Source of the DNA: a virus
Virus record (IMG/VR): IMGVR_UViG_3300028857_000012
Coordinates: 1-43,760 of that record
Direction: 5' to 3' (one strand)
Length of the DNA: 43,760 bases
A program made the position numbers and the translations under genes. Positions 225 through 15,350 of the stretch are shown here, piece after piece. The notes beneath the pieces were generated by a model, which saw only the letters and a program-made list of their open reading frames with translations, was not told the origin of the DNA and searched no databases. Positions within the stretch are counted from its first letter, which is position 1. Each line of letters opens with the position of its first letter.

Positions 225-315
225 GTAAGTGAGATATGAATCTCAACGACACCGGGCCACGGCGCCGCAATAAGGCGGCGACACTGCAAGGTGTAATAAG
301 GAAGGACGGCTACAT

Positions 316-1320
316 ATGAAGATTAAATCAATGGAAACAGGCTACAAACGCACAGAGACGACAAAGGCACTCCGCAAAGAGGCTAGACAGACTGGCACGC
401 TCGCTATCCGTAAAGGGGATAGTAGGCGAGGGCTACACTGCTGTAAAGCACCAACACTAGCAGAAGATAGTACAATAGAAGACGTCTATCTGACCGCCGA
501 GCAACAGGACACAATAGCATTGCATGCCTTGAGGGAATCGCTCGCATCTGACATCCTAGTGCCGGGCTACAAATGGACACGCTACACCCTGTGCCAACGT
601 GCCGCCTTTGGAATGAATACGGAGGACTTGCGCATGGAGTACCCGGAAGTATTCCGCACCAACTATCAGGATATCTTAATGACTGCAATCACGGCAACGT
701 ATGACTTGGAAAAGGTCCAAACTGCATGCGGCAAGGTGCGTAAAGAACATCCCGCGATGACGGACACTAGCATACTTTTAAAGGCATACTTCCGTACAGC
801 GGGGAGCGCCATCAAGGCTTATGTCAGAGCCAATAAATCGCACTCATACAGGGTGCAATTGAATGCTGGGGGATACTTGCCCACGAAAGAGGAAAAAACC
901 GCTCTCAAGGCATGCAGGGCGGCTCTGAATGCACGTGAAGCGGCCGAAATCATCGACCAGTATGAGGATGGAGAACAAACAGTGCAAGTATTGTCCTACA
1001 TCGAGCCGCAACGATGGGAAACAGTAGGACGTACCGCCGTCATAGACCCTGATAGGGCCTTCCATGGTGCAACGGCATGGAGTGACGGACTCGCCATGGT
1101 AAGTGACATTGGCGCCCTGGAGTTTGAAACCGTAATGCTAGATATGGAGCTAGCACGAGCGCTAGAGAGCAAGCCTGCTGATTTACAATTGGCTCGTGAC
1201 CTATTCAACGGGCTAGTATCGCCCAAGGCTTGGAAATCTACGAACGCTCGCCGCCGTACACGGATACAGGGTGCCTACCATGATATATTGGGAGTGGACG
1301 TATTCGATACGGCGCTCTAG
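316..1320 (+). CDS. Hypothetical protein, 334 aa, unknown function
   Basis: I do not recognise this protein. It is a single intact 334-aa frame with a basic N-terminus and a Lys/Arg-rich, mostly helical-looking middle. There is no signal peptide, no membrane segment and no obvious catalytic motif. The ATG at 316 is preceded by an AAGGAAGGA-like ribosome binding site. The gene stands alone between its own promoter candidate (196-224) and a strong terminator (1333-1365). In the closed circle it lies a few hundred bases downstream of the iteron region 42943-43525, so a replication initiator is one possibility. That is based on position only. Confidence 0.75.
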   Translation: MKIKSMETGYKRTETTKALRKEARQTGTLAIRKGDSRRGLHCCKAPTLAEDSTIEDVYLTAEQQDTIALHALRESLASDILVPGYKWTRYTLCQRAAFGMNTEDLRMEYPEVFRTNYQDILMTAITATYDLEKVQTACGKVRKEHPAMTDTSILLKAYFRTAGSAIKAYVRANKSHSYRVQLNAGGYLPTKEEKTALKACRAALNAREAAEIIDQYEDGEQTVQVLSYIEPQRWETVGRTAVIDPDRAFHGATAWSDGLAMVSDIGALEFETVMLDMELARALESKPADLQLARDLFNGLVSPKAWKSTNARRRTRIQGAYHDILGVDVFDTAL

Positions 1321-1332
1321 CATCAAGCTTAA

Positions 1333-1365
1333 AAGCCTGTAGCTGCAATGGTTACAGGCTTTTTT
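1333..1365 (+). terminator. Rho-independent terminator after the 334-aa gene
   Basis: A 9-bp stem AAGCCTGTA/TACAGGCTT (1333-1341 with 1353-1361) is followed by a T run ending at 1365. It lies 12 bases after the stop codon at 1320, which makes the first gene a separate transcription unit. Confidence 0.9.
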
Positions 1366-1373
1366 AATTGTAT

Positions 1374-1550
1374 GGTACACAAACAGCCGCCTAAGTGTCT
1401 ATTATAGTGTAAGCACAACACAAACAGCCGCCACAGAGGGGAGCGGCACGAACGACAACACAGAAAAAAACTTAAAAAGACGGTACACAAACAGCCGCCC
1501 AAGTGTCTATTATAACGAGAGACAAAACAGCAACACCAACAGCCGCCACA
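1374..1550. repeat. Two long direct repeats plus two partial copies (AACAGCCGCC core)
   Basis: A 33-nt unit, beginning GGTACACAAACAGCCGCC and ending TATTATA, occurs at 1374-1406 and again at 1482-1514 with one base changed (108-bp period). Shorter copies sharing the CAACACmAACAGCCGCCACA block lie at 1416-1435 and 1531-1550. Four AACAGCCGCC cores therefore sit in about 180 bp of otherwise gene-free DNA. The repeats end in a -10-like TATTATA but no matching -35 is visible. They could be binding sites of a phage protein, tandem promoters or a partition/origin element. Confidence 0.85.
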
Positions 1551-1693
1551 AAACGAGGCGCGGGCACATATGAGCCAGTGAGAACTGGTGTGGCTAGCCT
1601 GCCGCTGTGTTGCTGAATTGCTACCGAAGTGAGGAGCCATGATGCTATCCGCATAGTTTACGGGATGCGGGCATACATGGTGAGAACTCACCG

Positions 1694-1825
1694 GTGGCCA
1701 TAAATAGGTCGTGTTGGTTGAATGGCCACAGACTGGTGGATGCTGGGAGTATACGCAATGCTGTTAGGATCGATGAGCTTCGTGTACGATATAACAAGGT
1801 GTATGAACTGCTGTTATCCCTGTAA
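1694..1825 (+). CDS. Possible 43-aa small protein
   Basis: This is a GTG-started frame of 43 codons with a Leu/Val/Arg-rich, helix-compatible C-terminal half. No homolog is recognised. It lies in the 1560-2065 stretch, which has no long gene. A perfect 5-bp hairpin (GGTGA/TCACC, 1679-1692) lies just upstream and would cover the start region. The ribosome binding site is poor. Alternative short frames exist here, including a Cys-rich one from 1758, so the true reading frame is uncertain. Confidence 0.25.
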   Translation: MAINRSCWLNGHRLVDAGSIRNAVRIDELRVRYNKVYELLLSL

Positions 1826-1828
1826 AGT

Positions 1829-1912
1829 ATGGTAGTAATGATTGAAGTACCAAAGGACGATGGAATGAAGTACAGGGTGTATGGACGAGGACATAGAAGA
1901 GAAGGTTGGTGA
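1829..1912 (+). CDS. Possible 27-aa basic small protein
   Basis: This ATG frame (internal ATG at 1838) starts 3 bases after the preceding frame and encodes 27 residues with a very basic C-terminus (YGRGHRREGW). Ribosome binding is weak. It is supported mainly by its place in a chain of end-to-end small frames leading to the 38-aa membrane peptide. Confidence 0.25.
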   Translation: MVVMIEVPKDDGMKYRVYGRGHRREGW

Positions 1913-1921
1913 GGTGACAAA

Positions 1922-2038
1922 GTGATTAAGGCTATGGCGCTGTTGGGCTGTTGCGCAGTCACACTTGGTACTGTATATTACTATGGCATCAGGTGGATAA
2001 TTCTGTGCGCCTGCTCAGTGTTTGGTGTAAGCGTATGA
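1922..2038 (+). CDS. Small membrane protein, 38 aa
   Basis: A GTG start at 1922 follows a good GGTGAGG-type ribosome binding site. The 38 residues are almost wholly hydrophobic (LLGCCAVTLGTVYYYG and WIILCACSVFGV), giving one or two membrane segments with four cysteines. It is too short for most gene finders. It ends 27 bases before the next gene. Its function is unknown; holin-like or inhibitor peptides are common in this size class, but nothing here identifies one. Confidence 0.45.
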   Translation: MIKAMALLGCCAVTLGTVYYYGIRWIILCACSVFGVSV

Positions 2039-2065
2039 GAAGATTTTGGAAATGGGGGTGGCGAA

Positions 2066-2296
2066 ATGACGGAAGCTAAATTTGAGAAGGCATTAAAGTT
2101 GATGGAAGAAATGGTCTACTATAACAGAAAGATAGTCGATATGGAGGAAATAATTCAGACGGATACCGAAATGAGAGTGGCGTGCCAAAATGTGAACGCG
2201 CACACGTGCGGACTTGATAAAGATGACGCCGAGATACTGCTGATGCGTTGGGAGTCGAATGTGCGGGCGTGTGAATCGGCGTTGAGGGTACTGTAA
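2066..2296 (+). CDS. Hypothetical protein, 76 aa, helical
   Basis: A short, mixed-charge, probably all-helical protein (KALKLMEEMVYYNRK...). It has an ATG start at 2066 behind a GGGGGTGG ribosome binding site. It has two cysteines and no recognised domain. It opens the run of small overlapping genes that continues to 5394. Confidence 0.65.
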   Translation: MTEAKFEKALKLMEEMVYYNRKIVDMEEIIQTDTEMRVACQNVNAHTCGLDKDDAEILLMRWESNVRACESALRVL

Positions 2297-2308
2297 GGGG
2301 GTGGTGAG

Positions 2309-2575
2309 GTGATAACGATCGAGAAAGAGCCGCAGATAGACTATGCCGCTATTGTTAGTGCAACGAACAATGTGCATGACTATGTAAAACAAAGCGAGAC
2401 AGGCGGGTGCCCTGATAGAATGGTAAGAGAGTGCCCAAAGAATAGCACGCATGATTGCTGTGGGCATTGCCTTAGATACTTAGAGGACGTGGGTTGCCAA
2501 ACGCCATGCCCCGCAATTGTTATGATGGCGGAGAGATACATGCTGGATGTAGAGGGGAAGCTGGTGAGGCGATGA
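2309..2575 (+). CDS. Cys-rich small protein with MITIEKE leader, 88 aa
   Basis: A GTG start at 2309 gives the N-terminus MITIEKE, shared almost exactly with a dozen other small genes in this genome. The body is different: a cysteine-rich segment (CPDRM...CPKN...CCGHC...CQTPC) that probably binds zinc. The C-terminal xPC motif also appears in five other proteins here. The stop overlaps the next start (ATGA, 2572-2575), so translation is coupled. No database family is recognised by eye. It is one of six likely paralogs of a cysteine-rich family. Confidence 0.7.
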   Translation: MITIEKEPQIDYAAIVSATNNVHDYVKQSETGGCPDRMVRECPKNSTHDCCGHCLRYLEDVGCQTPCPAIVMMAERYMLDVEGKLVRR

Positions 2576-2883
2576 TAGTGATCGAAAAGGAAGAAGAGGT
2601 ATTGGATTATTACGGGTACATCAAGAAGCTAAAGATAGGGAGGTCAGTTCATACGGCGCTACGATTTGTAGGCAGAGATGTAGACCCTTCGTTGGAGGCC
2701 CCCCCAATATCTGTGCTATGCGACCACCATTGCCCGGGTGACGAGGATAGAAGTTATGATGTGTGCTGTGCGGCCTGCATGTCTGGGTTTGCGGGTACAG
2801 CTGAAAAGGCGAGCCGTTGCACTGAACCGTGCCAACCTGTGAAGCTGTGCGCCGAATTAATGCGAGACGGGGTGATAGAGTGA
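2572..2883 (+). CDS. Cys-rich small protein with MIVIEKE leader, 103 aa
   Basis: The start is set at ATG 2572 rather than the longer upstream frame. It overlaps the previous stop by ATGA and restores the shared leader (MIVIEKEEE). The body has a cysteine cluster CDHHC...CCAAC...CTEPC...C, similar in spacing to the neighbours and likely zinc-binding. It is coupled to the next gene by a GTGA overlap. Function unknown. Confidence 0.65.
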   Translation: MIVIEKEEEVLDYYGYIKKLKIGRSVHTALRFVGRDVDPSLEAPPISVLCDHHCPGDEDRSYDVCCAACMSGFAGTAEKASRCTEPCQPVKLCAELMRDGVIE

Positions 2884-3131
2884 TACTGATAGCTAAAGAC
2901 CTTACGCCTACCAAGGAGGAGTATGCCGAGGTGTTTGCTAGGTACTACAGTAAAATGCACATGTATGCACAAATGGAGAATGCCTACTTTAAGGCAAGAA
3001 GGTGTGGTTGCGAGGATCAAGGTGATGTTTGGGGACACGCTGATTGTTGCTCAACATGCTTCCATTATGGTGAAGGATGCGAGAAGCCGACATGCCGCGC
3101 TGTTGCCGCGATACTGCATGTAGATCTGTAA
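2880..3131 (+). CDS. Cys-rich small protein with MILIAKD leader, 83 aa
   Basis: The start is set at GTG 2880, inside the stop of the previous gene (GTGA). This gives the leader MILIAKD. Cysteines follow the family pattern: CGCED...CCSTC...CEKPTC. It is the third consecutive member of the cysteine-rich family, and the three together look like a tandem duplication that has diverged strongly. Function unknown. Confidence 0.65.
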   Translation: MILIAKDLTPTKEEYAEVFARYYSKMHMYAQMENAYFKARRCGCEDQGDVWGHADCCSTCFHYGEGCEKPTCRAVAAILHVDL

Positions 3132-3177
3132 CGATGCCATGCTGAGATGTGGCACCGTTAGAGCGCTACTGCTCTAA
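3130..3177 (+). promoter_or_regulatory. Two tandem RNA hairpins before the 70-aa gene
   Basis: The first hairpin pairs AACG-TGCCA with TGGCA-CGTT (3130-3139 with 3150-3159, one A-C mismatch). The second is a perfect 7-bp stem TTAGAGC/GCTCTAA (3158-3164 with 3171-3177). They share two bases. No T run follows, so they look more like mRNA-stabilising or processing structures than a terminator. Confidence 0.5.
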
Positions 3178-3205
3178 ATGCTTATGTTCTGAAAGGAGAA
3201 CGAAA

Positions 3206-3418
3206 ATGGCAGATCAGGAAAAATTGGTGCTTAAAAACGCGCCGTCCATCTTAGCGATGGACAAAGCGGCGGATGTCGCCACGTTGACAGTCCCCATCAT
3301 GGGGTTGATCGACGCAAAAGATGGTAAGACTACCCACGTTGTAACAAGCGGCACATTGCAGGTTGTGCGTAGTGATGGCAAGATCATCACACTGATGGTC
3401 AATGCGTACTACAAGTAG
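3206..3418 (+). CDS. Hypothetical protein, 70 aa
   Basis: The start is placed at ATG 3206, seven bases after a clean AAAGGAG, not at the longer upstream frame. The protein appears to alternate beta strands and turns (LTVPIMGLIDAKDGK, LQVVRSDGKIITLMV), suggesting a small beta-rich fold. There are no cysteines or membrane segments. A strong binding site and the hairpins upstream suggest high expression. Function unknown. Confidence 0.7.
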   Translation: MADQEKLVLKNAPSILAMDKAADVATLTVPIMGLIDAKDGKTTHVVTSGTLQVVRSDGKIITLMVNAYYK

Positions 3419-3812
3419 GAAGTTACTGTGGGCAAAGGTGGCCGACCACGCTTGCGTGTCTTGGTCACCTGTCCTTTGGATCGCACTTTGCGTGTTCAGT
3501 ATCATATGCGCCATGGAGAATGCGAAGGCAATCCCCATGATGTGGACGATAGCGGTACTGAGTGTAGCTGTGTTGGCAGGAGTGTTTTGGCTTGTCACAC
3601 TGGTAACACGTAATGTATACACGTCTCGTATGCACAAGGAGGTCGACCGGATGTTGGATGGGCTGTTGAGTATGTATGAAGAGGCGTTCTACAATAAGCG
3701 GGATAGCGCTAGGAAACCTGCAAGCACTAGAGCTACCTACCCCGGACTTGGTACGATCGAAGAATACACAGAGGGCGGCGAGAATCGCGTCCGTTTCGTA
3801 AGCGGGAGATAA
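3402..3812 (+). CDS. Membrane protein with two predicted TM helices, 136 aa
   Basis: Two hydrophobic helices (around residues 20-38 and 44-68) are followed by a charged C-terminal domain of about 65 residues, so a hairpin membrane anchor with a cytoplasmic tail is likely. The ATG at 3402 overlaps the previous gene by 17 bases. A GTG at 3438 would shorten it by 12 residues. Function unknown; it could be a superinfection or host-envelope factor, but nothing proves this. Confidence 0.6.
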   Translation: MRTTSRKLLWAKVADHACVSWSPVLWIALCVFSIICAMENAKAIPMMWTIAVLSVAVLAGVFWLVTLVTRNVYTSRMHKEVDRMLDGLLSMYEEAFYNKRDSARKPASTRATYPGLGTIEEYTEGGENRVRFVSGR

Positions 3813-3821
3813 TCCCGCTTT
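3801..3821 (+). terminator. Terminator-like hairpin at the gene end
   Basis: A perfect 7-bp stem AGCGGGA/TCCCGCT (3801-3807 with 3813-3819) spans the stop codon of the membrane protein gene. Only three T residues follow, so termination is probably partial. It lies immediately upstream of the tRNA-like element and could also act as a processing site. Confidence 0.5.
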
Positions 3822-3823
3822 AT

Positions 3824-3898
3824 GGAGAGATAGCTCAACGGAAGAGCATATGAACTGGGCTTAGGGCAGTGACGCAGGTTCGACTCCTGCTCTCCCAC
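3824..3898 (+). tRNA. tRNA-like element with an aberrant anticodon arm
   Basis: The D arm (TA-GCTC-loop-GAGC) and the T arm (GCAGG-TTCGACT-CCTGC) are canonical. The acceptor stem pairs at 5 of 7 positions. The middle is abnormal: 26 nt lie between D and T arms, and the only good stem is ACTG/CAGT (with a G-G fifth pair), leaving 6 nt before it and 3 nt after it. Its 7-nt loop would present TTA as anticodon, but with C rather than U at position 33. It could be a degenerate tRNA, an unusual suppressor-like tRNA or a tRNA mimic. No CCA is encoded in the standard position. Confidence 0.5.
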
Positions 3899-3926
3899 CC
3901 GTATAAACCAAAAAGGAGGTAGTGGT

Positions 3927-4250
3927 ATGATACATATAAGAGAGCTTGCAGGGAAAATTGGTGACAACGACAGTGTTCCGTGCCGCGTGAGCTCGACGCT
4001 CAGTGATGTTATACTCGGTTCAACGTGGGCACACAACCATGTACTGAACATACTGGAAAAAGGGTGCGGGATTACCATATGCCTGCTAAAAGACAATGGA
4101 TTTTCAGTAGAACTATTCAGTGCGGGAAGCAGTAAGTTAGGTGACGATATGATACTGAAATTCCTGAGAAACGACTGTGAAGAGTCGAAGCGAAAGATAA
4201 AAGACGGAGCAACACTCATAATATTAAGAGTTTGCGCAGGAAGGAGGTAG
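3927..4250 (+). CDS. Hypothetical protein with MIHIREL leader, 107 aa
   Basis: An ATG at 3927 follows a strong AAGGAGG site. The N-terminus MIHIREL is a variant of the shared M-I-x-I-x leader. The rest (107 aa) is a mixed alpha/beta protein with hydrophobic strands (ITICLLK, TLIILRVC) and no zinc-like cysteine cluster. It is thus a different body behind the same start. Its stop lies within the ribosome binding site of the next gene. Function unknown. Confidence 0.65.
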   Translation: MIHIRELAGKIGDNDSVPCRVSSTLSDVILGSTWAHNHVLNILEKGCGITICLLKDNGFSVELFSAGSSKLGDDMILKFLRNDCEESKRKIKDGATLIILRVCAGRR

Positions 4251-4254
4251 TGGT

Positions 4255-4554
4255 ATGATAACGATAAACAAAGAAGACGCCTGCTACTCAAAGAAAGAGT
4301 TGCTTGCGGCTTTGGGGTATCGTAAGAATGATGATCTGCACATTCTGGTAGGCAATGCCTACCGCGCCAAGACTGGTGAAAAGATTAATAACAACGGAAG
4401 GGCTTGCTACGTACCGTCCCAGCTGTGCTCATGCAGAGCCTGCGCTAATAATAACGGGGGGTGTTGCGCGTTAGAACTCAACACTGGCAAGAAACAATGC
4501 GACACTTGCGAGAATCCGTGTAAGGTAATCGAGGAGCTAAGGAGGGGATTGTAG
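4255..4554 (+). CDS. Cys-rich small protein with MITINKE leader, 99 aa
   Basis: The start at 4255 uses the same 20-base ribosome binding and start block as the gene at 3927. The body carries a dense cysteine set ending CDTCENPCKVIEEL; the neighbouring gene ends with the related CAACTNPCKAI, so these two are clear paralogs. Likely zinc-binding. It overlaps the next gene by one base (TAGTG). Function unknown. Confidence 0.7.
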   Translation: MITINKEDACYSKKELLAALGYRKNDDLHILVGNAYRAKTGEKINNNGRACYVPSQLCSCRACANNNGGCCALELNTGKKQCDTCENPCKVIEELRRGL

Positions 4555-4883
4555 TGATAATGATAGCGAAAGGAAGTTGCTCTACAATAGAGGATGTACT
4601 GCGAGATGCGAGTTGCCTGTTTGGGTGTAGCCGTACCTATGTGCAACGCGCGTTGAAGAGGAATGCGCCTTGCTTGAAGGCAGAGCTGTGTGAGAGCGCC
4701 TGCAATAATACTAGATCTAGTTTCGGAGTGAGGTCATATTACAGCGTTAATGAGAATTGCTGTGCATGGAGAAATGCGCCGGGCAACCCCAATCTCTCCA
4801 CAAAGGACAAGGAGCAGTGCGCGGCCTGTACGAATCCATGTAAAGCGATAAAGCAGTTAATAGAAATGGGGTATGGCCAATGA
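4554..4883 (+). CDS. Cys-rich small protein with MIMIAKG leader, 109 aa
   Basis: A GTG start at 4554 overlaps the previous stop. The C-terminal half has the family signature (CESAC...CCAWR...CAACTNPC) and best resembles the product of 4255-4554. The N-terminal half has a stretch (VLRDASCLFGCSRTYVQRAL) that could form a helix-turn-helix-like unit, but this is weak. The end overlaps the next start by ATGA. Confidence 0.7.
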   Translation: MIMIAKGSCSTIEDVLRDASCLFGCSRTYVQRALKRNAPCLKAELCESACNNTRSSFGVRSYYSVNENCCAWRNAPGNPNLSTKDKEQCAACTNPCKAIKQLIEMGYGQ

Positions 4884-5110
4884 TAACGATTGATAAAGAA
4901 ACACGAGCCGAGATAGAGGTTGGGGACAAGATTGTGTATGTGCACAAGAGCCAGTCCGAGACGCCGCCTAGTTACTTCATCGTAGGAGACACTGGTGTAG
5001 TGCTAAGTATAAGACTCAAGGAAAATGGTGATAAAGCGCTACATAAATGCCGGAACGATCGAAACGGTGAGGTGGAAGCCCTGTACAAGAAAGAATTGGA
5101 GATGGTGTGA
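4880..5110 (+). CDS. SH3-like small protein with MITIDKE leader, 76 aa
   Basis: After the common leader MITIDKE, the body reads as a small beta barrel: EVGDKIVYVHK, then VGDTGVVLSIRL, then a short C-terminal strand. This arrangement (a G-D-x-V strand followed by a G-x-V strand) is typical of SH3/KOW-like folds and recurs in the genes at 5110, 9287, 9544 and 9786. Start ATG 4880 overlaps the previous stop (ATGA). Function unknown; nucleic-acid or protein binding is possible. Confidence 0.65.
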   Translation: MITIDKETRAEIEVGDKIVYVHKSQSETPPSYFIVGDTGVVLSIRLKENGDKALHKCRNDRNGEVEALYKKELEMV

Positions 5111-5394
5111 TGATAACAATCGAGAGGGAGAGCATAGACCTGATACCCGGAACTGAGTTCAGTATTGGGGACAGGGTAATATCCGTCGAGCAAGGCGGGC
5201 AGGTTGGTACTATCCTATGCTACACGGTTCTTCACCATAATAATGTGCCTGAGCTTAACCAAATAGGTGTTGTGTTCGATGCTGATGTTGGGGGACACTC
5301 GCTTACTGCTATAAATAATATACCCGCAGAGGCTAGATGCGAGGACGGGCATGGTTGGTATTGCTACCGAAGTCTACTGCAACGCACTAAATAA
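5110..5394 (+). CDS. SH3-like small protein with MITIERE leader, 94 aa
   Basis: ATG 5110 (or GTG 5107, one codon earlier) overlaps the preceding TGA. The leader MITIERE is followed by FSIGDRVISVEQGGQVGTILCYTV and IGVVFDADVGG, again an SH3-like pattern. The C-terminus is Trp/Tyr-rich. It is the last gene of the first small-gene array, immediately before the leader of the ubiquitin-like gene. Confidence 0.65.
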   Translation: MITIERESIDLIPGTEFSIGDRVISVEQGGQVGTILCYTVLHHNNVPELNQIGVVFDADVGGHSLTAINNIPAEARCEDGHGWYCYRSLLQRTK

Positions 5395-5467
5395 CGTCTA
5401 ACCTGCACCCCGCTGTGCATTAGAATAATTCGTTAGATCCCAATAAGTGTATTGTTGCTAGGGCAAC
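5393..5467 (+). promoter_or_regulatory. Structured leader of the ubiquitin-like gene
   Basis: A compound hairpin pairs AACG (5393-5396) with CGTT (5431-5434), TCTAA (5397-5401) with TTAGA (5420-5424) and GCAC (5405-5408) with GTGC (5415-5418). A second hairpin, GTTGC/GCAAC (5454-5458 with 5463-5467), sits four bases before the AAAGGAG. There is no T run. It is likely an mRNA stabiliser or translation control element. Confidence 0.55.
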
Positions 5468-5484
5468 AGAAAAGGAGTTTCAAA

Positions 5485-5694
5485 ATGAAAACAGTTAAAG
5501 TAGCATTCGTACCGGGAACAGTCAAAGAAGTGGCCGCAGAAGACAACGCAACACTCGATCAGATCCTTGAGATCGCCGGAATCAACGCAGAGGGTTACGA
5601 TGTACGCATCGGTGACACCACAGCGACCATGACCGTTATCCCCGCAGACGGAACAAAGATTTACCTCGTCAAACAGGTTAAGGGAAACCTGTAG
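5485..5694 (+). CDS. Ubiquitin-like (beta-grasp) modifier protein, 69 aa
   Basis: The start is set at ATG 5485, eight bases after AAAGGAG. The 69 residues fit a ThiS/MoaD/ubiquitin-like beta-grasp: strand-turn-strand (VKVAFVPGTVKEVAAE), a central helix (LDQILEIAG), strands YDVRIGDTTATM and a final strand IYLVKQVKGNL. This layout resembles the Prok_Ub family (Ubl of PRTRC-type systems). The C-terminus has one glycine (G67) followed by NL, so the two last residues may need removal before activation. The neighbours encode E2-, JAB- and E1-like proteins, which supports a protein-modifier role rather than sulfur transfer. Confidence 0.8.
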   Translation: MKTVKVAFVPGTVKEVAAEDNATLDQILEIAGINAEGYDVRIGDTTATMTVIPADGTKIYLVKQVKGNL

Positions 5695-5696
5695 AC

Positions 5697-5838
5697 CTGA
5701 CAGACTGGTCAGTTGGACGCCGGAGTGGAAGCGAGAGCTTCCCTCTCAAGCCCACGGTAATGCGTAGTAGAGTAGTCGCTACTTGCATGGGCGTGACTCC
5801 CGTTGCGACGTGGGCTTGAGAGAGGGGCTTAACCCTCT
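5697..5838 (+). ncRNA. Highly structured RNA between the Ubl and E2 genes
   Basis: About 140 nt without a gene. Visible stems: CTGAC/GTCAG (5697-5712); GGAAGC-GAGA-GCTTCC (5727-5742), a 6-bp stem with a GNRA loop; a directly adjacent 14-bp perfect long-range stem (5743-5756 with 5809-5822) closing a 52-nt domain that holds AGTAG/CTACT (5771-5783) and GGG/CCC (5789-5801); and AGGG/CCCT (5823-5836). An alternative GAGAG/CTCTC pairing (5733-5747) would break both the GNRA hairpin and the long stem. It may be a 5' regulatory RNA of the E2 gene or a separate small RNA. Confidence 0.6.
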
Positions 5839-5854
5839 TCACTGGAAAGGAGTG

Positions 5855-5863
5855 ATGATGTAA
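5855..5863 (+). promoter_or_regulatory. AUG-AUG-stop minigene in front of the E2 start
   Basis: The AAAGGAG at 5846-5852 is followed by ATG ATG TAA and then directly by the ATG (5864) of the 474-aa gene. The second ATG lies five bases from the Shine-Dalgarno and is followed at once by a stop. The real start is 11 bases away. Initiation at the minigene would compete with, or recharge, initiation at the E2 gene. Confidence 0.55.
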
Positions 5864-7288
5864 ATGAGTATCAAAAGAACGGAAGAGTATAAAGGGATAC
5901 CATACATGTTTGACGATGCGTATGGAGAGACGGAGAACAAGCGCACAGCGCAGAGGTTAATTGCGATGGCGGCGAAGACTTCATTTGAGAAGCTGTTCGT
6001 ACCGTTCCCGCCTAACGCAACACCGACGCTTACAAAGGAAGACATGATCGCGGCTGAGGCTGACGATGGTGTACTGTATGTACTTCCTATCGGAACGAAT
6101 TTCTCGGATGGTTTTGAGCTACCGACGATCTACACCGACGAGACATACGAGACCGCTCTCGGGGGTATCTATGGGGACAGCGTCGTGTTCATGTGCCTGC
6201 CACCCATTGTGGAAAACAACGGGGCGATCAAGGAGATTATCGACCGAAAGGCCGAGGCGTGCCTAGACTCTGAGATAGAGCCCAAGCGCAGAGCCTATGA
6301 GCATGCGCAGGTGGCGGCGTTTATCTCTAGCAGAATTGGCGCTAGACGCAAGACCGCAGAGCAGAATCTATCGCAGTACAGAGCCTCGTACAAGACAAAC
6401 GCAGAGGCGATGTTCATGTATGCGGGCAAGATTGAAGAGGCGGAGGCGCTGATTCGCGGAACATCCGACGACCCGCAGGAGAAAAAGCGCATCGAGGACG
6501 ATATTGAGGAGCTGTTCGGTAGCACCGTGCTCAAACGGGTGGAGTTTAAAGGTACGACGGTAATCTTCCACACCGGAGAACTGTCAATCACCGACGCAGG
6601 AGGAAATGTGAGACCGATCGGAGCCTTTGAAGCAACCATAGACTTGCCGTCAAGCTCTGTCAAATTCAATAACACGAACAACCACATCGACCCGAAGTAC
6701 GGCCGTATTCCGCATCCGCATTGCAGTTCCGAGGGGAGTCCGTGCCTCGGAAACATAGGTAGCGTAGTTCCTGCGCTGTGCCATGACTATGACGTTCTCG
6801 GGCTGTGGCAGATCGTACTGTCCTTCCTGACAAGCTACAATGGAGACGACTCTTGGGGCAGGCAACTGATACAGTGGCCGGCTGTTGACAAGAATGGAAA
6901 CAAGATAGCCGCTCCGTCGATTTCAGCACAAGGCGCGGCGGTTAGGTGCCATCATTGCGGCGACACGATAGAAGAGGGAGAAGAGCAAATCTGCGATCGG
7001 TGCGGGCATACGGTATGCAGTGAATGTGCAACAACATTCGTAAGGGAGGACCTTACAGAATACACGCTTTGCGAAGACTGCACGGAATACTGTGACATAT
7101 GCGGGACACAGCACGACCCTGAGGTTAAAGAGATGCACCAATGCGCTCAGTGCGTAGATGTGCGATTCTGCAAATACGCGCTCGGCATAATCAACAAGTA
7201 CGACATGTGGTTCTGTAGTCTCGACTGCCTGAACGAATACGAAAGAGATAATGACCTTCCGGTAACGGAGGCAGGTGATTTAGCATGA
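5864..7288 (+). CDS. E2-like ubiquitin-conjugating protein fused to RING/FYVE-like zinc domain
   Basis: 474 aa. The core at about residues 225-340 has E2-like features: a beta-rich lead-in (FEATIDLPSSSVKF), then HPH (284-286), eight residues on C294 in PCLGN, and a helix ending SYNGDDSWGR. This resembles PRTRC protein B and related prokaryotic E2 families, so C294 is the likely thioester cysteine. Residues 130-215 are charged and helical, possibly coiled coil. The C-terminus has eight cysteines spaced C-x2-C-x11-C-x2-C-x4-C-x2-C-x14-C-x2-C (362-406), a RING/FYVE-type cross-brace pattern, then seven more (410-455). I infer an E2 with a built-in E3-like or zinc-binding module. It overlaps the JAB gene by ATGA. 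The E2 call rests on motifs, not a profile search. Confidence 0.75.
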   Translation: MSIKRTEEYKGIPYMFDDAYGETENKRTAQRLIAMAAKTSFEKLFVPFPPNATPTLTKEDMIAAEADDGVLYVLPIGTNFSDGFELPTIYTDETYETALGGIYGDSVVFMCLPPIVENNGAIKEIIDRKAEACLDSEIEPKRRAYEHAQVAAFISSRIGARRKTAEQNLSQYRASYKTNAEAMFMYAGKIEEAEALIRGTSDDPQEKKRIEDDIEELFGSTVLKRVEFKGTTVIFHTGELSITDAGGNVRPIGAFEATIDLPSSSVKFNNTNNHIDPKYGRIPHPHCSSEGSPCLGNIGSVVPALCHDYDVLGLWQIVLSFLTSYNGDDSWGRQLIQWPAVDKNGNKIAAPSISAQGAAVRCHHCGDTIEEGEEQICDRCGHTVCSECATTFVREDLTEYTLCEDCTEYCDICGTQHDPEVKEMHQCAQCVDVRFCKYALGIINKYDMWFCSLDCLNEYERDNDLPVTEAGDLA

Positions 7289-8355
7289 GCAAAATGAAAC
7301 CGCATAATGCGAAACCGCGGGTAGTTTGGGTGGGGGCAAAGGGCATCAAGCTGTTCTTCACACCTACCGCCATTGCTAAGATACAGTGTTACATTGAGGA
7401 ATGCAACAAGGAAGTCGGGTGGCTTGGTAAGGTGACAGAGTACAAGGTGGCAGAGTACAAGGACAGCCTGTACCTGTGCGACGAAACTTACCTGCTACAT
7501 CAGGATGTAGGATCGGCAACAACGGAGATCACTCCGGCAGGGCTTGTAGCATTTGCAGAGGAAGTCGGACTTGAGGAGATGGGTAAAGCGCATCTATGGG
7601 GGCACTCTCACGTAGACATGGGGACTTCACCTTCCGGTCAGGACAACTCGCAGATGTCACTGTTCAAAGAGAACGGAATGGAATGGTTCTTCCGGATCAT
7701 AGGGAACAAGAAGGGTGAAATCACGGTAACGTACTACAACTGGACAGCAGGCGTGGTAGTCGAGGATGTTCCGTGGGATGTATACGACCCTTTGGCAGAC
7801 ACTCTGCGCGAAGCAATCAAAGCAGAGATAGCCGAAAAGGTAAAGGATATCGTATACACACCCGACACCTATGTAGGATTTAACAGAAAGTGGGATAGAA
7901 TGTTCGATGGGTATGACGATAAAGTGTGGGACAAGAAACATCAGTGCTGGGTATCCAAGGATTCCGACAATACGCAGACGCGCATAGTAACAGCGCCAGC
8001 CAGGCCGGACAACAAGGCCCCCGTAAAGATAACGTATAACACGCCTCTTGAAGAGGAGACGTGGTCATTCAAGATCGAGGCGGCCTCCATACTTCCGGAA
8101 TGGGTAAAGAGAAGGATATACGCAGGATCATACGGAGACTGTAGTAAGTACATAGATGTCAAAGAGGTCATGGAAGACTGGGCGATCAGCTATGAGGAGC
8201 TAGCAGAAGGAGTGTGCGCCCTGCTCGACGATATGGCGCTCGCAGAGAAGATGTTAGTAGCGGCTAGGAGTAAAGGGTACTCGGTATCCACTCTGATAGA
8301 GGGAGAAGGAGGTGTAGACGATAATGGACTACAGCAGACAGCTCAAGGAGTTTAA
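7285..8355 (+). CDS. JAB/MPN (JAMM) metalloprotease, probable Ubl deconjugase
   Basis: 356 aa. The N-terminal half holds a full JAMM zinc-protease signature: E43 in EVGWLG, H107-S-H109, then seven residues to S117 and D120 (GHSHVDMGTSPSGQD). Such enzymes cut isopeptide or C-terminal peptide bonds at a ubiquitin-like glycine. Two roles are likely here: trimming the NL tail of the 69-aa modifier, and removing it from targets. The C-terminal half (about 170-356) is unrecognised and may bind substrates. The start overlaps the E2 stop (ATGA), so translation is coupled, and the end overlaps the E1 gene by 32 bases. Confidence 0.88.
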   Translation: MSKMKPHNAKPRVVWVGAKGIKLFFTPTAIAKIQCYIEECNKEVGWLGKVTEYKVAEYKDSLYLCDETYLLHQDVGSATTEITPAGLVAFAEEVGLEEMGKAHLWGHSHVDMGTSPSGQDNSQMSLFKENGMEWFFRIIGNKKGEITVTYYNWTAGVVVEDVPWDVYDPLADTLREAIKAEIAEKVKDIVYTPDTYVGFNRKWDRMFDGYDDKVWDKKHQCWVSKDSDNTQTRIVTAPARPDNKAPVKITYNTPLEEETWSFKIEAASILPEWVKRRIYAGSYGDCSKYIDVKEVMEDWAISYEELAEGVCALLDDMALAEKMLVAARSKGYSVSTLIEGEGGVDDNGLQQTAQGV

Positions 8356-8986
8356 CCCGGAAGACTTCAAACTTCCGGTACACGTTATCGGGTGCGGCGC
8401 AACGGGGTCATGGGTAGCCATGATCCTAGCCAAGCTCGGCGTGAAAGATATTCACATTTGGGACTTCGACATTGTGGAAGAGCACAATATTCCCAATCAG
8501 TTATTCGCTATGTCGGACATCGGCAAGTTAAAAACGGATGCTTGCATGGAAAATATGCTAAGATGCTCTGCATTAGAAAAGGTGATGGTACACTATGAGA
8601 GGGCAGACAAGGATTCGATGCTTTCAGGAATCGTGTTCCTGCTGACTGACACCATGAAGAGCCGCGACGAGATATTCCGGAAATGCTTGAAGAACAACCT
8701 CGCCGTTCCGCTGTTTATCGAGACACGAACGTGCCTAGAGGGGGGAAGAGTATATGCGCTGAACCCAAGCAACAAGTCACAGTGTACCGAGTATGCGAAG
8801 ACGCTGTACACGGACGAGGAGTCAGCAGTTTCGGAGTGCGGCACATCACAGTCCATGGCACCCACGTCGGCGCTGATTTCCAGCTTGGCGGTGTGGCAGA
8901 TGGTGAAGTGGCACAAGGATGTGGAGATTGACAACGAGGTTCTGATCGACGCGAAGTACAACACATTCCTGGCACGCAAGTTCTAG
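8324..8986 (+). CDS. ThiF/E1-like Ubl-activating enzyme
   Basis: 220 aa, the size of a minimal ThiF/MoeB-type adenylation domain. Rossmann glycine motif GCGATG (23-28), acidic pair D47/D49 in DFDIVEEHN, NQ at 58-59 in place of the usual RQ, K68/K70 and D109 follow the E1 order. Cysteines include C137, C154 and C172; C172 (SECGTS) is the best candidate for thioester transfer. It should adenylate the C-terminal glycine of the modifier at 5485. The ATG at 8324 has a GGAGG site 11 bases upstream, within the end of the JAB gene. It is the last gene of the conjugation cluster. Confidence 0.88.
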   Translation: MDYSRQLKEFNPEDFKLPVHVIGCGATGSWVAMILAKLGVKDIHIWDFDIVEEHNIPNQLFAMSDIGKLKTDACMENMLRCSALEKVMVHYERADKDSMLSGIVFLLTDTMKSRDEIFRKCLKNNLAVPLFIETRTCLEGGRVYALNPSNKSQCTEYAKTLYTDEESAVSECGTSQSMAPTSALISSLAVWQMVKWHKDVEIDNEVLIDAKYNTFLARKF

Positions 8987-8996
8987 GAGGTGTAAC

Positions 8997-9287
8997 ATGA
9001 TAGAGATTGAAAGAGTAAGGGACGATTCAATAAGACGCCTGCACGAAGTGTTTTCAGAAACAGGTATGGGTGTCGTTGCAATGTTAAGAAATATTTACAA
9101 CGACGAAGCGAACGGTGGAACGGCCTGCTCCGCACATAACGGAAGAGAGGGTAGGTGCAGGAAGAGCGTATCCCAAAAATGCTGTTCCACGATGATAAAA
9201 TCGGGAAGCAAGGAATGCTTCGACTGCGACGAGCCATGCGCCGCCACAAAAGCTCTGCTTGAACATATCAGGAAGGAGGGTTTATAA
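8997..9287 (+). CDS. Cys-rich small protein with MIEIERV leader, 96 aa
   Basis: It starts 10 bases after the E1 gene; the AGGAGG overlaps the E1 stop codon. The leader MIEIERV and the cysteine pattern (C...C...CCST...CFDCDEPCAAT) make it the sixth member of the family found at 2309-4883. Members of one family thus flank the conjugation cluster on both sides, and this one is probably co-transcribed with it. Likely zinc-binding; role unknown. Confidence 0.7.
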   Translation: MIEIERVRDDSIRRLHEVFSETGMGVVAMLRNIYNDEANGGTACSAHNGREGRCRKSVSQKCCSTMIKSGSKECFDCDEPCAATKALLEHIRKEGL

Positions 9288-9547
9288 TGATAACGATAGC
9301 AAAAAGGAAAGAACACTGGGAAAAGTTGAACTCTCACGACGCGTGGCCGCCGGTAGTCGGCGAGACGTGCCGGATAACGTCGAAAGGGTGGAGATACCGA
9401 TACCCGGAAGACCGCAACGCCGTAGTCATTGACTTCCAATACAAGTACAGTCTGCCCGGAATACTAGACCAAGTACTTGTGAAGTTTGTTGAGGACGGAA
9501 GAACAAGGCGGTTCACGGCACTGAGCACCGTGGAGGTGAGAAGATGA
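9287..9547 (+). CDS. SH3-like small protein with MITIAKR leader, 86 aa
   Basis: An ATG at 9287 overlaps the previous TAA by one base after GGAAGGAGGG. After MITIAKRKE the protein reads VVGETCRITSKGWRYRY..NAVVIDFQY..VLVKFVEDGRTRRFT, strand-rich with an SH3-like repeat of basic and aromatic residues. It is coupled to the next gene by ATGA. Function unknown. Confidence 0.65.
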   Translation: MITIAKRKEHWEKLNSHDAWPPVVGETCRITSKGWRYRYPEDRNAVVIDFQYKYSLPGILDQVLVKFVEDGRTRRFTALSTVEVRR

Positions 9548-9789
9548 TTACCATTGAGAAGTGTTCTATATACGATCCACTAACCTACAATCAGTTAAGG
9601 CGGGGTATGCGCGTAAAAGCGATGTACAATGTGTCAGACATCGCCACAAATCTTGGTAGGGAAGGTGAGATAATCGATGTGTTTAGTAGCCCACGCCCTA
9701 ACCATAATGTGTGTTTTGTGAGGTTTGACGGGGGAAACAGGTCAGCGTGGGCCTGCGCCGCGGAGGCGCTGGTGGAGGTGGATACATGA
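9544..9789 (+). CDS. SH3-like small protein with MITIEKC leader, 81 aa
   Basis: The body (LRRGMRVKAMYNVSDIATNLGREGEIIDV...VRFDGGNRSAW) is clearly related to the next gene: both contain G-M-x-V-x, N/H-L-GREGE and RFD...W. This pair is a tandem duplication of an SH3/KOW-like module. ATGA overlaps occur at both ends. Function unknown. Confidence 0.7.
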   Translation: MITIEKCSIYDPLTYNQLRRGMRVKAMYNVSDIATNLGREGEIIDVFSSPRPNHNVCFVRFDGGNRSAWACAAEALVEVDT

Positions 9790-10034
9790 TAACGATTGAG
9801 CGTGAGATCGAGCCTGAAATACTAAAACGTTCCGACCTGAAAGTAGGAATGAAGGTAAGGGTAGTGCGAGATGTGATTGACGCACATAACCACCTCGGAA
9901 GAGAGGGAGAAGTAACTAAGGTGTATCCGGAAAGCGCATCGTCCGAATATGACGCCCTGGTTCGATTCGACGAAATGCGAGAGGGTCACTCGCGTACTTG
10001 GTGGGTGTCAGCAAAAGCGGTGGAGATAATATAG
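9786..10034 (+). CDS. SH3-like small protein with MITIERE leader, 82 aa
   Basis: The start is set at ATG 9786 (ATGA with the previous stop), not at the longer frame with a Gly-rich N-terminus. This restores the leader MITIERE. The body (LKVGMKVRVVRDVIDAHNHLGREGEVTKV...VRFDE...W) parallels the previous gene. It ends the second small-gene array. Function unknown. Confidence 0.72.
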   Translation: MITIEREIEPEILKRSDLKVGMKVRVVRDVIDAHNHLGREGEVTKVYPESASSEYDALVRFDEMREGHSRTWWVSAKAVEII

Positions 10035-10060
10035 TCTCTATTTAAAAAGGAGGACGAAAA

Positions 10061-10300
10061 ATGAAAGATGTAAAATGTATGAAGGCTGAGGATTTCGGAT
10101 GGGTTGTTGGTAAGTCAATAAACGGTATCACATTGAACCAACTCGAATACCTTGCGGATGATGGTGGAAAAGAAATGACCTTCCCGTCAAAAGAAGCCGC
10201 CGTCGAGTTTTTAAAGTCCCATGGTGTTTCAAACGAAGAGATTGAGTTTATGAGATTCTTTGTCCATACTCAGCGTTCGAATTGCAGAGAAAGTTGCTGA
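10061..10300 (+). CDS. Hypothetical protein, 79 aa
   Basis: The ATG at 10061 follows AAAAAGGAGGA. It is an acidic, mixed alpha/beta protein with no recognised domain. It is the last gene before the promoter at 10341, and no clear terminator separates them (only a weak AATCA/TGATT hairpin). Function unknown. Confidence 0.65.
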   Translation: MKDVKCMKAEDFGWVVGKSINGITLNQLEYLADDGGKEMTFPSKEAAVEFLKSHGVSNEEIEFMRFFVHTQRSNCRESC

Positions 10301-10340
10301 TTTAATCAAACAATGATTACTAATTTATGAAAACTACTGA

Positions 10341-10369
10341 TTGACAAATTGTTAATCGTGGGTTATAAT
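10341..10369 (+). promoter_or_regulatory. Consensus sigma70 promoter for the replication operon
   Basis: TTGACA at 10341-10346, 17-bp spacer, TATAAT at 10364-10369: a perfect match to both hexamers. It lies 22 bp upstream of the TTG start at 10392 and would drive the replication genes through 19106 with host RNA polymerase alone. Confidence 0.9.
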
Positions 10370-10391
10370 ACAAGAAAAAGGGGGCGATAGT

Positions 10392-10820
10392 TTGGGAGAA
10401 GTATTGGAAATATTCTCGCAGATAGACAGTAAGGCTAAGTTCATACGCGTGCTGGCGATCTACAATAAATTGGAGGAGGCACGCCGCGTCGCAGAGATGG
10501 ACGACATCGAGTTCAAGAAGCTCCTGCCCACACTGACAAAGAGCATCACCAAGCTCAATGCACAGTGTGACGGCATGTACGGATCTGTAAAGGAAATGTT
10601 GAAGGGCATGACTGACGAGGCTGGGATGCTTGAGGTGGCAATTTCTGTGCTATCACTAGCAGACGGCTACACAAGGTCGCTGTCAAGCGCAAAGGTTGGT
10701 AGCATAGTAGCTACAGACACGTGCGCTGAGGTGGCGCAAAAGCTAAAGACATCTATGATAGTCGAGAGATTATCAGAGTGTGTGGGGGTAAAGAAAGATG
10801 GCGACAATAAGCAAAGTTGA
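10392..10820 (+). CDS. Hypothetical protein, 142 aa, first gene of replication operon
   Basis: A TTG start at 10392 is chosen because an AGGGGG site lies about eight bases upstream and the promoter is just before it. The protein is all-helical in appearance with Lys/Glu-rich segments and no motif I recognise. The 3' end overlaps the helicase start by 23 bases, indicating coupled translation. Possibly a replication accessory protein by position. Confidence 0.65.
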   Translation: MGEVLEIFSQIDSKAKFIRVLAIYNKLEEARRVAEMDDIEFKKLLPTLTKSITKLNAQCDGMYGSVKEMLKGMTDEAGMLEVAISVLSLADGYTRSLSSAKVGSIVATDTCAEVAQKLKTSMIVERLSECVGVKKDGDNKQS

Positions 10821-12498
10821 CGACAAGATACAGCTATTCACAGAGTATTCTGACATTGAGAAATGCCGTAGTATCCCATGCGGAAAGTGGAATAAGAAGG
10901 TTTCGTGCTGGGAATACCCACTTGAAGCACTGCCAAATGTGATTGGAGCTTTCCCAAGAGCGACTGTGGACAGTATATTGAAGGGGCAGTTACGCAGGTT
11001 TGATGTGATAGAGCGCAACGTATCGGCGTTGGTGCGCGGAGAAACGGAGCCGCGAGACCACCCGTTCCTGATGGCACACCAACGTAAATGCCGCGACATT
11101 GCGATATTCAAGAACAAGTACGCTTGGTACATGGATACCGGAACAGGCAAGACGCTGACGGCATACGCCGTTATCGAAGACAAAATAACCGCAAAGTGGC
11201 TTGTAATATGCCCGCGTTCTATCATCAAGACGGCGTGGGTGGAAGACCACCTACACTTTTTTCCGTACCTTAAAGTCTTACCCATGTCGACGAACATGAA
11301 GAAGAAGGACTACCTTGAGGTTGCGGAACGGTGGGGGCTTGGGTATCTAGGAAAGTTGAAGACTGCCGATATACCAAAGTACCTGATGCAGTATGCAGAT
11401 GTAATCGTAATCAACCCGGAGTCGTTCAAGATACGGGACGACGTGAGGACGTGGCCACACGCAGGGCTTATCGTAGACGAGTCTTCGATACTGCGTGACA
11501 TGAGATCGCAAATAACCAAATCGGTAATCGAGCACGCCGACAGGATGCAATACACTTATCTCCTTTCAGGGAAGCCGGCGCCTAACAGTGACTTGGAATA
11601 CTTTGCGCAAATGCGTGTCGTGAACCGCGCGCTGTTAGGCGACAGCTTCTTTAAATTCAGAGACACGTTCTTCAAGCCGATAGACTACTTCGGAAGGGAT
11701 TTTAGAATGATTCCTGAGATGAAGGAGGCCTTCTCGCAGAGACTTGCGAAGTCGTGCATCTACATATCCAAAGGAGAATGTTTAGATTTGCCGAAAGATA
11801 TGCCTCCGATCATCCGTAGCGTAGAGCTACCGAAAGACGCGATGCGGCAGTACCGTCAGATGGAGAAGGACTCTATACTGCTGCTACAGGATAAGTCAGT
11901 TGCGGCAAGCAACAAGCTGGCGGCAATGATGAAGCTAAGGCAAATGACGTCGGGATTCATCATCGACACGAACGACGACAGCAAGGTGATGCAACTGCAT
12001 CACGCGAAGCTGGACGAGCTACGCAGTGTTATTACAGAACTTGGAGACAACAAGGCTGTGATATGGATCAACTTCAAGCACGAGGTAGCGGACATCATGG
12101 AACTCGTGGCATCAATGGGAAAGACGGCTGTTACAGCATACAGCGGAACGAAGAACACAGACGACAGTATTGACGACTTCAAGAGCGACAAGGCACAGTT
12201 CATCATAGCGCACCCAAAGACGCTGAAATACGGCGTCACGTTCACCGGGGAAAGCATGGTGAAGAACTGCACCTACGCGATATACTACAGTATGTCCCAC
12301 TCATTTGAGGACTACTACCAGTCACACGATAGAATCTACAGAAAGGGGCAGACGGAAGCCTGCACTTTCATTCTTCTGATAGCAGAGCACACCATAGACG
12401 AGGATATCTCTGCTGTCGTAACAAGAAAGGGGAGCAATGCAGAAGTGATGGAAAATATGATTAGGAGGTGTGGAGATGCCGAAATCAGCGAAGACTGA
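10798..12498 (+). CDS. SNF2-type superfamily 2 DNA helicase
   Basis: 566 aa. Walker A DTGTGKT (about residues 113-119), a DEAH-like box VDESS (about 225), the LLSGKPAPN motif III and the terminal motif VI QSHDRIYRKGQ (about 505) are characteristic of SNF2/Rad54-like phage helicases. The first 100 residues form a short N-terminal domain. It is an ATP-driven DNA translocase or helicase in phage replication or recombination, encoded with polymerase and VRR-NUC nuclease as in many phages. It overlaps the next gene by 20-30 bases. Confidence 0.92.
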   Translation: MATISKVDDKIQLFTEYSDIEKCRSIPCGKWNKKVSCWEYPLEALPNVIGAFPRATVDSILKGQLRRFDVIERNVSALVRGETEPRDHPFLMAHQRKCRDIAIFKNKYAWYMDTGTGKTLTAYAVIEDKITAKWLVICPRSIIKTAWVEDHLHFFPYLKVLPMSTNMKKKDYLEVAERWGLGYLGKLKTADIPKYLMQYADVIVINPESFKIRDDVRTWPHAGLIVDESSILRDMRSQITKSVIEHADRMQYTYLLSGKPAPNSDLEYFAQMRVVNRALLGDSFFKFRDTFFKPIDYFGRDFRMIPEMKEAFSQRLAKSCIYISKGECLDLPKDMPPIIRSVELPKDAMRQYRQMEKDSILLLQDKSVAASNKLAAMMKLRQMTSGFIIDTNDDSKVMQLHHAKLDELRSVITELGDNKAVIWINFKHEVADIMELVASMGKTAVTAYSGTKNTDDSIDDFKSDKAQFIIAHPKTLKYGVTFTGESMVKNCTYAIYYSMSHSFEDYYQSHDRIYRKGQTEACTFILLIAEHTIDEDISAVVTRKGSNAEVMENMIRRCGDAEISED

Positions 12499-13057
12499 AA
12501 AGCTGTGGACAATGCTGTACGACCTGCTTATGGCTATGGCAGATCCGAAGACAGGAGTTGTGCTTGCAAACTCAAAGGAACTGGAAGCGATGCTTGGTAG
12601 AAAGTACAACACAACGCAGATATGTAACGGGCTGTTGCACTTGGTAAAAACCGGTGAGATTAACACGCACAGAGACCGCGGTACGATGGGAAATGAATAC
12701 GTAGTTCCGGAGCTTACGAAAGGGAACACCGTGACAACAAAGATACACGACACGGTGACGATGGAAGACTTTGGAAAGCCTTACGAGAAGTTCGTAATTC
12801 CGGAAACGCAGGAACCTTCGACATACGAAAAGAAGTACGCACCAATCGTACTTCCTGAGACAGAGAAGAGCAAAGAGGAGAAGTCGCGCACACCAGTGGA
12901 ATGCGTAATGGATAGCTGGGATTATGCCAATGCGGCAGAGTACGCCCGTAAGACTCTGAGAGACACAGACCACATAGTGGGTGATGTTTTATCAGCATTT
13001 ATACAGATGCGAGATGCGCTGGACAGGATGATTCGAGAGGTAGACAAACATGCTTGA
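12476..13057 (+). CDS. Winged-helix-like hypothetical protein, 193 aa
   Basis: ATG 12476 is preferred to GTG 12470 because it is seven bases from AGGAGG. Residues 1-75 (LWTMLYDLLMAMADPKTGVV...LEAMLGRKYNTTQICNGLLHLVKTGEI) look like a winged helix with a recognition helix, suggesting DNA binding. The middle is Pro/Glu/Lys-rich and probably disordered, and the C-terminus is helical. It lies between helicase and nuclease, so a replication or loading role is possible. The end overlaps the next gene by 8 bases. Confidence 0.6.
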   Translation: MPKSAKTEKLWTMLYDLLMAMADPKTGVVLANSKELEAMLGRKYNTTQICNGLLHLVKTGEINTHRDRGTMGNEYVVPELTKGNTVTTKIHDTVTMEDFGKPYEKFVIPETQEPSTYEKKYAPIVLPETEKSKEEKSRTPVECVMDSWDYANAAEYARKTLRDTDHIVGDVLSAFIQMRDALDRMIREVDKHA

Positions 13058-13343
13058 GAAGGACTTTCAGCGGAATGTAATCAATATGATGAAACGTGAC
13101 TTCCCCGATCTGTGGTTCTTCAAAGTGTCCGACCGGTTCATGGGCGGAATACCCGACATCATAGGATGCTGTCGGGGCAGGATGTTCGGTATCGAGCTCA
13201 AAGTAAGCCCGAACAAAACGACAAAGCTACAAGACTTCACGATAGACCTGATGCGCAAGGCCGGGGCGCGTGTCGCCGTAGTATCAGACGACGTGGATAA
13301 AGCTAGGTTATTTCTGCTATCACTGTATCACGGAGAGGAGTAG
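13050..13343 (+). CDS. VRR-NUC domain nuclease
   Basis: 97 aa, a whole stand-alone VRR-NUC domain of typical phage size. The PD-(D/E)XK-type active site is visible as GGIPDIIGCCRGRMFGIELK (D, then E-x-K), and the C-terminal helix ARVAVVSDDVDKARLFL fits the family. Such small nuclease proteins accompany SNF2 helicases in phage genomes and probably resolve or process branched DNA. Confidence 0.92.
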   Translation: MLEKDFQRNVINMMKRDFPDLWFFKVSDRFMGGIPDIIGCCRGRMFGIELKVSPNKTTKLQDFTIDLMRKAGARVAVVSDDVDKARLFLLSLYHGEE

Positions 13344-13346
13344 CAA

Positions 13347-14163: not shown

Positions 14164-14167
14164 CGCC

Positions 14168-15326: not shown

Positions 15327-15350
15327 AGAAGAATCTCACGATATAGCACC

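Follow-up and report, generated by a model that had tools for sequence, protein, structure and literature searches.

Ubiquitin-like (Ubl) conjugation systems of bacteria, known mainly as antiphage defences (PMC10097602; PMC11354881), bring together a modifier, an E1 activating enzyme, an E2 conjugating enzyme and a JAB protease. Neighbourhoods of such genes have been described as operon types 6a-6e, with one to three tandem Ubls in type 6e (Iyer et al. 2006, PMC1779556), as the Bil (BilABCD) operon, as part of the PRTRC systems (TIGR03735-03742) and, in Caldiarchaeum subterraneum, as the Ub-E1-E2-srfp-Rpn11 cluster (PMC5654768, PMC6043591). In this study we analysed the full 43,760-base IMG/VR virus record IMGVR_UViG_3300028857_000012, from a phage of bacteria and referred to here as the window, in which four genes in the order Ubl-E2-JAB-E1 lie at positions 5485-8986. 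From their sequences and predicted structures we consider it likely that this phage-borne operon encodes a self-contained and reversible Ubl-conjugation system. If this is true, phages would employ for their own ends the chemistry known from these defences. As related sets lie beside DNA-replication genes in many unrelated phages, a ubiquitin-like protein tagging run by phages themselves is probable.

Comparison with described systems

The window and Caldiarchaeum sets are both compact and both combine a Ubl precursor, an E1, an E2, a zinc protein, of RING type in Caldiarchaeum, and an Rpn11-type JAMM protease, and the likeness extends to the phage JAB profile, whose best match is RPN11, and to the fold matches of the phage Ubl, which include the Caldiarchaeum Ub. 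In contrast to that set, the one in the window is phage-borne, its E1 is a single ThiF-like domain of 220 amino acids, its zinc domain is fused to the E2, its Ubl ends in KGN and not GG, and its E2 carries an HPH motif. Bil resembles it in having four genes, for Ubl, E2, JAB and E1. However, BilA combines two Ubl domains with a C-terminal Gly, BilB has a C-E-H-H motif, and BilD consists of an inactive and an active adenylation domain with a Cys domain (PMC11354881, reviewing Millman 2022 and Chambers 2023), whereas the window has one Ubl, an E2 with HPH-x7-C plus D and an E1 with a single adenylation domain, in a system carried by a phage rather than directed against phage. Membership of Bil was therefore rejected, both on the E1 architecture and on the E2 motif.

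PRTRC systems share with the window the presence of Ubl, E2, JAB and ThiF proteins on a mobile element. Membership was rejected here also, as PRTRC_ThiF was the one PRTRC model matched, at 33.2 bits against a cut-off of 144.75. In types 6a-6e the JAB is usually fused to the E1, unlike the separate proteins seen here, and the E2 lacks the Cys in type 6e and the upstream His in type 6d, whereas the window E2 keeps His, Cys and Asp (PMC1779556). A phage Ubl and JAB are also found together in the lambdoid tail-assembly proteins TAPI/TAPK, there with neither E1 nor E2 and among tail rather than early genes (PMC1779556). No description of this class of phage cassette was found in the open-access literature, a scope beyond which key subscription papers lie, and we provisionally regard the cassette as a new variant of the bacterial Ubl-conjugation systems.

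The E1 and JAB enzymes

The open reading frames (ORFs) lie in the order that had originally been predicted, all on the plus strand: the Ubl modifier of 69 amino acids at 5485-5694, the E2-like protein with a C-terminal zinc domain (474 amino acids) at 5864-7288, the JAB/JAMM metalloprotease (356 amino acids) at 7285-8355 and the ThiF/E1-like adenylating enzyme at 8324-8986. The ATGA and 32-base overlaps said to join them hold for the E2 and JAB genes, which share 4 nucleotides, and for the JAB and E1 genes, which share 32; the Ubl and E2 genes are separated by a gap of 169 nucleotides.

The E1 matches PF00899 with an E-value of 1.8e-23 and 83 bits (cut-off 28.1), as the proposed ThiF profile search had anticipated. 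Ten residues (G23, G25, D47, D49, N55, Q59, K70, D109, R135 and C172, the last encoded at 8837-8839) are kept in 92 of 92 E1s, so that D109, K70 and C172 give the adenylation domain its catalytic residues. N58, in the NxxNQ motif at 8486-8500, is present in 89 of the 92 where the NxxRQ motif of MoeB and UBA1 has an Arg (MoeB Arg73, UBA1 Arg515; PMC12355090), and judging from the alignment NxxNQ is a signature of this E1 group.

The JAB carries the JAMM/MPN+ signature E - HS/TH - x7 - S - x2 - D (motif at 7603-7644), its residues E43, H107, S108, H109, S117 and D120 are invariant in 28 relatives, and JAMM1 joins RPN11 among its best profile matches in the PDB. The E-HSH-x7-S-x2-D motif, the ThiF G-x-G and residue C294 of the E2 were all located as claimed for this locus. 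Among curated libraries, PF00899 was matched by the E1 and Prok-JAB was reached by the JAB below threshold; there was no match for the E2 and none to PF14454. The profile searches advocated for the Prok-JAB and E2 families thus gave no significant match.

The E2-like protein and its zinc domain

Identification of the second protein as an E2 depends on its fold and on its conserved residues. In the AlphaFold model residues 138-350 form a core of high pLDDT (predicted local distance difference test), and within it residues 202-345 (6467-6898) are a UBC/E2 core whose structural matches are overwhelmingly eukaryotic E2s. The best VIA match is UBE2S (Z 7.4, root-mean-square deviation 4.1, 119 residues), followed by dozens of E2s at Z of about 7; the best Foldseek matches have probabilities of 0.9-0.99, yet E-values of 0.009-0.1. 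As these scores are individually moderate, the assignment of the fold stands on their consistency and not on any single strong score. The Bil and Cap2 bacterial E2s are not among the top structural matches listed, which is no evidence against kinship.

Conservation among 62 non-redundant relatives is concentrated in a motif PH-x7-C-L-G ... D, with P285 kept in 50, H286 in 62, C294 in 61, G296 in 60 and D329 in 59. H286, C294, D329 and the other near-invariant positions are E2 active-site positions; they fall in the motif HPHCSSEGSPC (H284-C294, 6713-6745, with the catalytic Cys at 6743-6745) and at the D329 codon (6848-6850). In an alignment by eye, UbcH5b, with the residues HPNINSNGSICL, has the same spacing as the window E2, HPHCSSEGSPCL, and NPDDP of UbcH5b pairs with NGDDS. 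When the full-length E2 profile was compared with the PDB it was swamped by coiled coils, and a profile of the core alone was used; against all PDB sequences it gave five matches at E<10, three of them E2s, including UBE2W (motif HPHVYSNGHICL), and in these three the catalytic cysteines line up with that of the core. UBE2W attaches its modifier to the N-termini of proteins. Pfam searches with 39 E2 relatives returned coiled-coil and zinc noise only. The UBC fold and the catalytic Cys are seen through fold matches and conserved H-C-D residues, with a weak match in sequence. In one related locus (L034, 6614-7975) the E2 homologue has Val for the Cys and His for the Asp, and to judge by these changes it may be degenerate or inactive.

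C-terminal to the core is an eight-Cys cross-brace zinc domain (residues 362-406, 6947-7081) with the pattern CxxC-x11-CxxC-x4-CxxC-x14-CxxC. This pattern occurs in seven of 9180 ORFs, six of which are E2s of this family, and we take the seventh, at locus L020, to be a fragment of an E2 tail. The protein had been labelled E2-RING; the first half of the label stood, and the second is doubtful, in that the spacing and the structural matches, to the FYVE-type zinc fingers of RIM2/rabphilin, are FYVE/RIM-like, although a loose RING (C3HC4) expression also fits. A plain RING was accordingly dropped in favour of a FYVE/RING-type cross-brace. A natural guess is that the domain serves as a built-in E3-like or substrate-binding module.

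The Ubl modifier

The AlphaFold model of the Ubl (pLDDT 86.7) finds structural matches by Foldseek and VIA in TtuB, SUMO2, NEDD8, Caldiarchaeum Ub, SAMP1 and Urm1, and those to TtuB, SUMO2 and NEDD8, with Foldseek E-values of 1e-4 and VIA Z-scores of 8-10, identify a beta-grasp fold. The folds on which the original prediction had staked itself beforehand, ubiquitin-like for this protein and UBC-like for the E2, were thus both found in the models. Its label of Prok_Ub could not be retained: the window Ubl does not match PF14454, the family is also absent among those listed for 41 relatives, and membership was rejected, the closest relatives in profile searches being of the SAMP2/ThiS type.

The C-terminus of the window Ubl reads ..LVKQVKGNL, ending in KGNL and without Gly-Gly. 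A tail motif can be recognised in 58 of 60 distinct Ubl proteins; it is Lys-Gly-Asn in 44 and includes KGA, RGA and KSA in the remainder. Counting all variants, 33 proteins end with the motif itself and 18 continue for a single residue. Seven distinct proteins contain two or three Ubl units in tandem (three at locus L010; the second unit at L093 is doubtful), with internal units mostly joined at KGN. This layout is that of polyubiquitin, and it implies proteolytic maturation, for which the JAB would be the obvious protease, by analogy with Rpn11, which matures the archaeal Ub precursor (PMC6043591). Clostridia-type loci have a second Ubl family ending in K-x-x-N-[A/G], and the E1 signature is common to both families. 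At locus L039 a second Ubl-like protein of 245 amino acids with a KGA tail (12054-12791, a weak match) lies downstream of the cassette and is perhaps a Ubl fusion.

The relationship to ThiS raises the possibility that the Ubl and E1 act as a sulfur carrier pair in the thiolation of a nucleotide or tRNA, comparable to ThiS/ThiF or MoaD/MoeB, with the JAB doing no more than trimming. SAMPs can serve as both sulfur carrier and protein tag, and the single ThiF-type domain of the E1 would suit such a function. Against this, there is a separate E2 whose H-C-D catalytic residues are present in 59-62 of 62 relatives, and no rhodanese or sulfurtransferase was noted among recurrent neighbours, which makes a sulfur carrier improbable in our view.

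The Ubl-E2 intergenic hairpin

The gap between the Ubl and E2 genes contains a long inverted repeat (5736-5829, plus strand), found by an inverted-repeat search and predicted to fold as an RNA hairpin (z -3.6). It is the strongest predicted hairpin and the most structured 100-nucleotide stretch of positions 1-19000 of the window. The Ubl-E2 gap ranks first or second for structure in eight of 11 homologous loci, with differing sequences; the gaps of L070 and L023 resemble intrinsic terminators and those of the other loci do not, and Rfam has no family for the hairpin. It is plausible that it could raise the amount of modifier above that of the enzymes.

The hairpins after the Ubl gene in loci L013, L014, L024 and L092 have in common the motif GTA[AG][AG]GCATA in the 3' arm, which is absent from the window; those of L013 and L014 have similar arms (GCTTTACTTGA...TCAAGTA) and variable loops. 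At L011 an ORF that looks from its sequence like a homing endonuclease (1752-2234) stands between the Ubl and E2 genes.

Related loci and their inheritance

Scans with single proteins brought up only the same phage a second time: on a contig of 26 kb from a different metagenome the JAB and E1 genes are identical to those of the window, as is a fragment of the E2. An alignment of six E1s proved too diverse to give a pattern for scanning. Scanning with a short JAB motif alone, derived from two phages, led to 80 viral contigs (of 164 hits) and 24 genome contigs, more than 100 related loci in all. At 77 of 79 further viral loci an E1 gene adjoins the JAB gene, the remaining two lying at contig ends. 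E2 homologues adjoin these genes in the orders E2-JAB-E1 (60 loci) and E1-JAB-E2 (19 loci), flanked upstream or downstream by Ubl homologues, and in all the E2 was detected by profile at 103 loci. The four proteins have diverged in a correlated way over 45 non-redundant loci (r 0.63-0.77, 0 of 2000 permutations), so the set has been inherited as a unit. The view that a complete phage Ubl-conjugation set is present amid early genes is well supported by this wide co-occurrence, by the structure models and by the catalytic residues.

A tblastn search of 50,697 phage records with the E1 reached 75 records, and it was the one query to find named phages, since the window E2, the window JAB and three other E2 subfamilies had no match among the same records. 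An inspected human-gut phage has a diverged cassette in the window order, Ubl-E2-JAB-E1. Cultured phages with diverged cassettes are crAss-like phages of Bacteroides intestinalis, Flavobacterium phage Fpv1 and the Xanthomonas jumbo phage PhiXhv-12. The crAss-like phages have Ubl-like, E2-like, 'metalloprotease' and 'ThiF' genes, the E2 assignments there and in Fpv1 being putative and made on position and a partial motif; PhiXhv-12 has a Ubl ending in GG, an E2 with a CLG motif and a Cys-rich tail, and an E1, with no JAB. As these phages are in culture, the question is directly testable. A family of cassettes owned by phages would also offer minimal E1-E2-JAB sets, with an unusual -Gly-Asn tail and polyUbl precursors, in which the evolution of ubiquitin-type tagging can be studied.

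Proposed mechanism and role

The chemistry proposed for each step is that of homologous enzymes. The JAB would trim a Ubl precursor or tandem polyprotein at the ..KGN tail, after which the E1 would adenylate the Ubl C-terminus and load it onto C172. The Ubl would then pass to C294 of the E2, and the E2, directed by its zinc domain, would attach it to target proteins, from which the JAB could take it off again. Several observations weigh against this interpretation. The similarity of the window E2 to known E2s is weak in sequence (E 0.3-0.9) and moderate in structure (Z about 7), and one relative, that of L034, has lost the catalytic Cys. The Ubl lacks a terminal Gly-Gly, and the E1 lacks the NxxRQ Arg that contacts ATP in MoeB.

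The genomic context helps to narrow the purpose of the system. Besides a terminase, portal and major head protein, the window encodes a primase/helicase, DNA polymerase A and an SNF2-type helicase. When loci were clustered at 60% E1 identity into 37 groups, SNF2 helicase was found near the cassette in 11, DnaB in seven and PolA in five, and a protein resembling single-stranded DNA-binding protein (a guess from sequence, with no Pfam match) in six. The recurrence of SNF2, DnaB, PolA and primase as neighbours argues for an early or replication role rather than one in virion assembly. A marking of structural proteins, those of the phage or of a rival phage, would have a parallel in Bil, which reportedly tags phage tail proteins (Hor et al. 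2024), and its effect on tail fibres. However, the structural genes of the window are far off, at 19.3-39.3 kb on the opposite strand, and with replication genes as the recurrent neighbours we think it very doubtful that virion assembly is the target.

It is also conceivable, though rather unlikely, that the cassette is a counter-defence, the Ubl chemistry tagging and disabling host antiviral proteins or jamming host Bil or CBASS Cap2. The early gene position, the patchy presence among phages, the antiphage action of bacterial Ubl systems (PMC10097602; PMC11354881) and a weak resemblance of the E1 to PADLOC E1-E2 models would fit this. No known anti-defence genes were noted near the cassette, however, and its conserved neighbours are replication genes. 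We favour, tentatively, the regulation or takeover of replication-phase proteins, whether those of the phage or of its host, since in many phage lineages genes for helicase, polymerase and primase are found next to the cassette, even if such neighbours may simply mean that it is an early gene. A broader proposal, to be held somewhat more loosely, is that of a phage-specific ubiquitin class over many tailed-phage lineages, crAss-like phages included, with a Gly-Asn modifier sometimes made as a polyUbl precursor, an NxxNQ E1 and a UBE2W-like HPH E2 with a zinc E3-like module, which would target replication-phase proteins.

Other features of the loci and of the window

Clostridia-type loci (among L054-L065, L081-L088 and L096-L113, not all) have, upstream of their Ubl, an additional conserved gene of about 123 amino acids and, downstream, one for a reverse transcriptase (RVT_1). 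A gamma-glutamyl cyclotransferase lookalike, recognised by eye and without a Pfam match, lies near the cassette in five E1 groups (for example L071, 10022-10540). Within the window, positions 3824-3897 match a tRNA in Rfam at 34.7 bits where ARAGORN gives no call, and this stretch is possibly a degenerate tRNA. About ten small early ORFs, at 2295, 2558, 2866, 4241, 4540, 4866, 5096, 9287, 9544 and 9772, open with almost identical DNA (..GTGATGATAACGATCGAGAAAGA) and the N-terminal peptide MITI(E/D)(K/R)E, which suggests a shared initiation region or tag.

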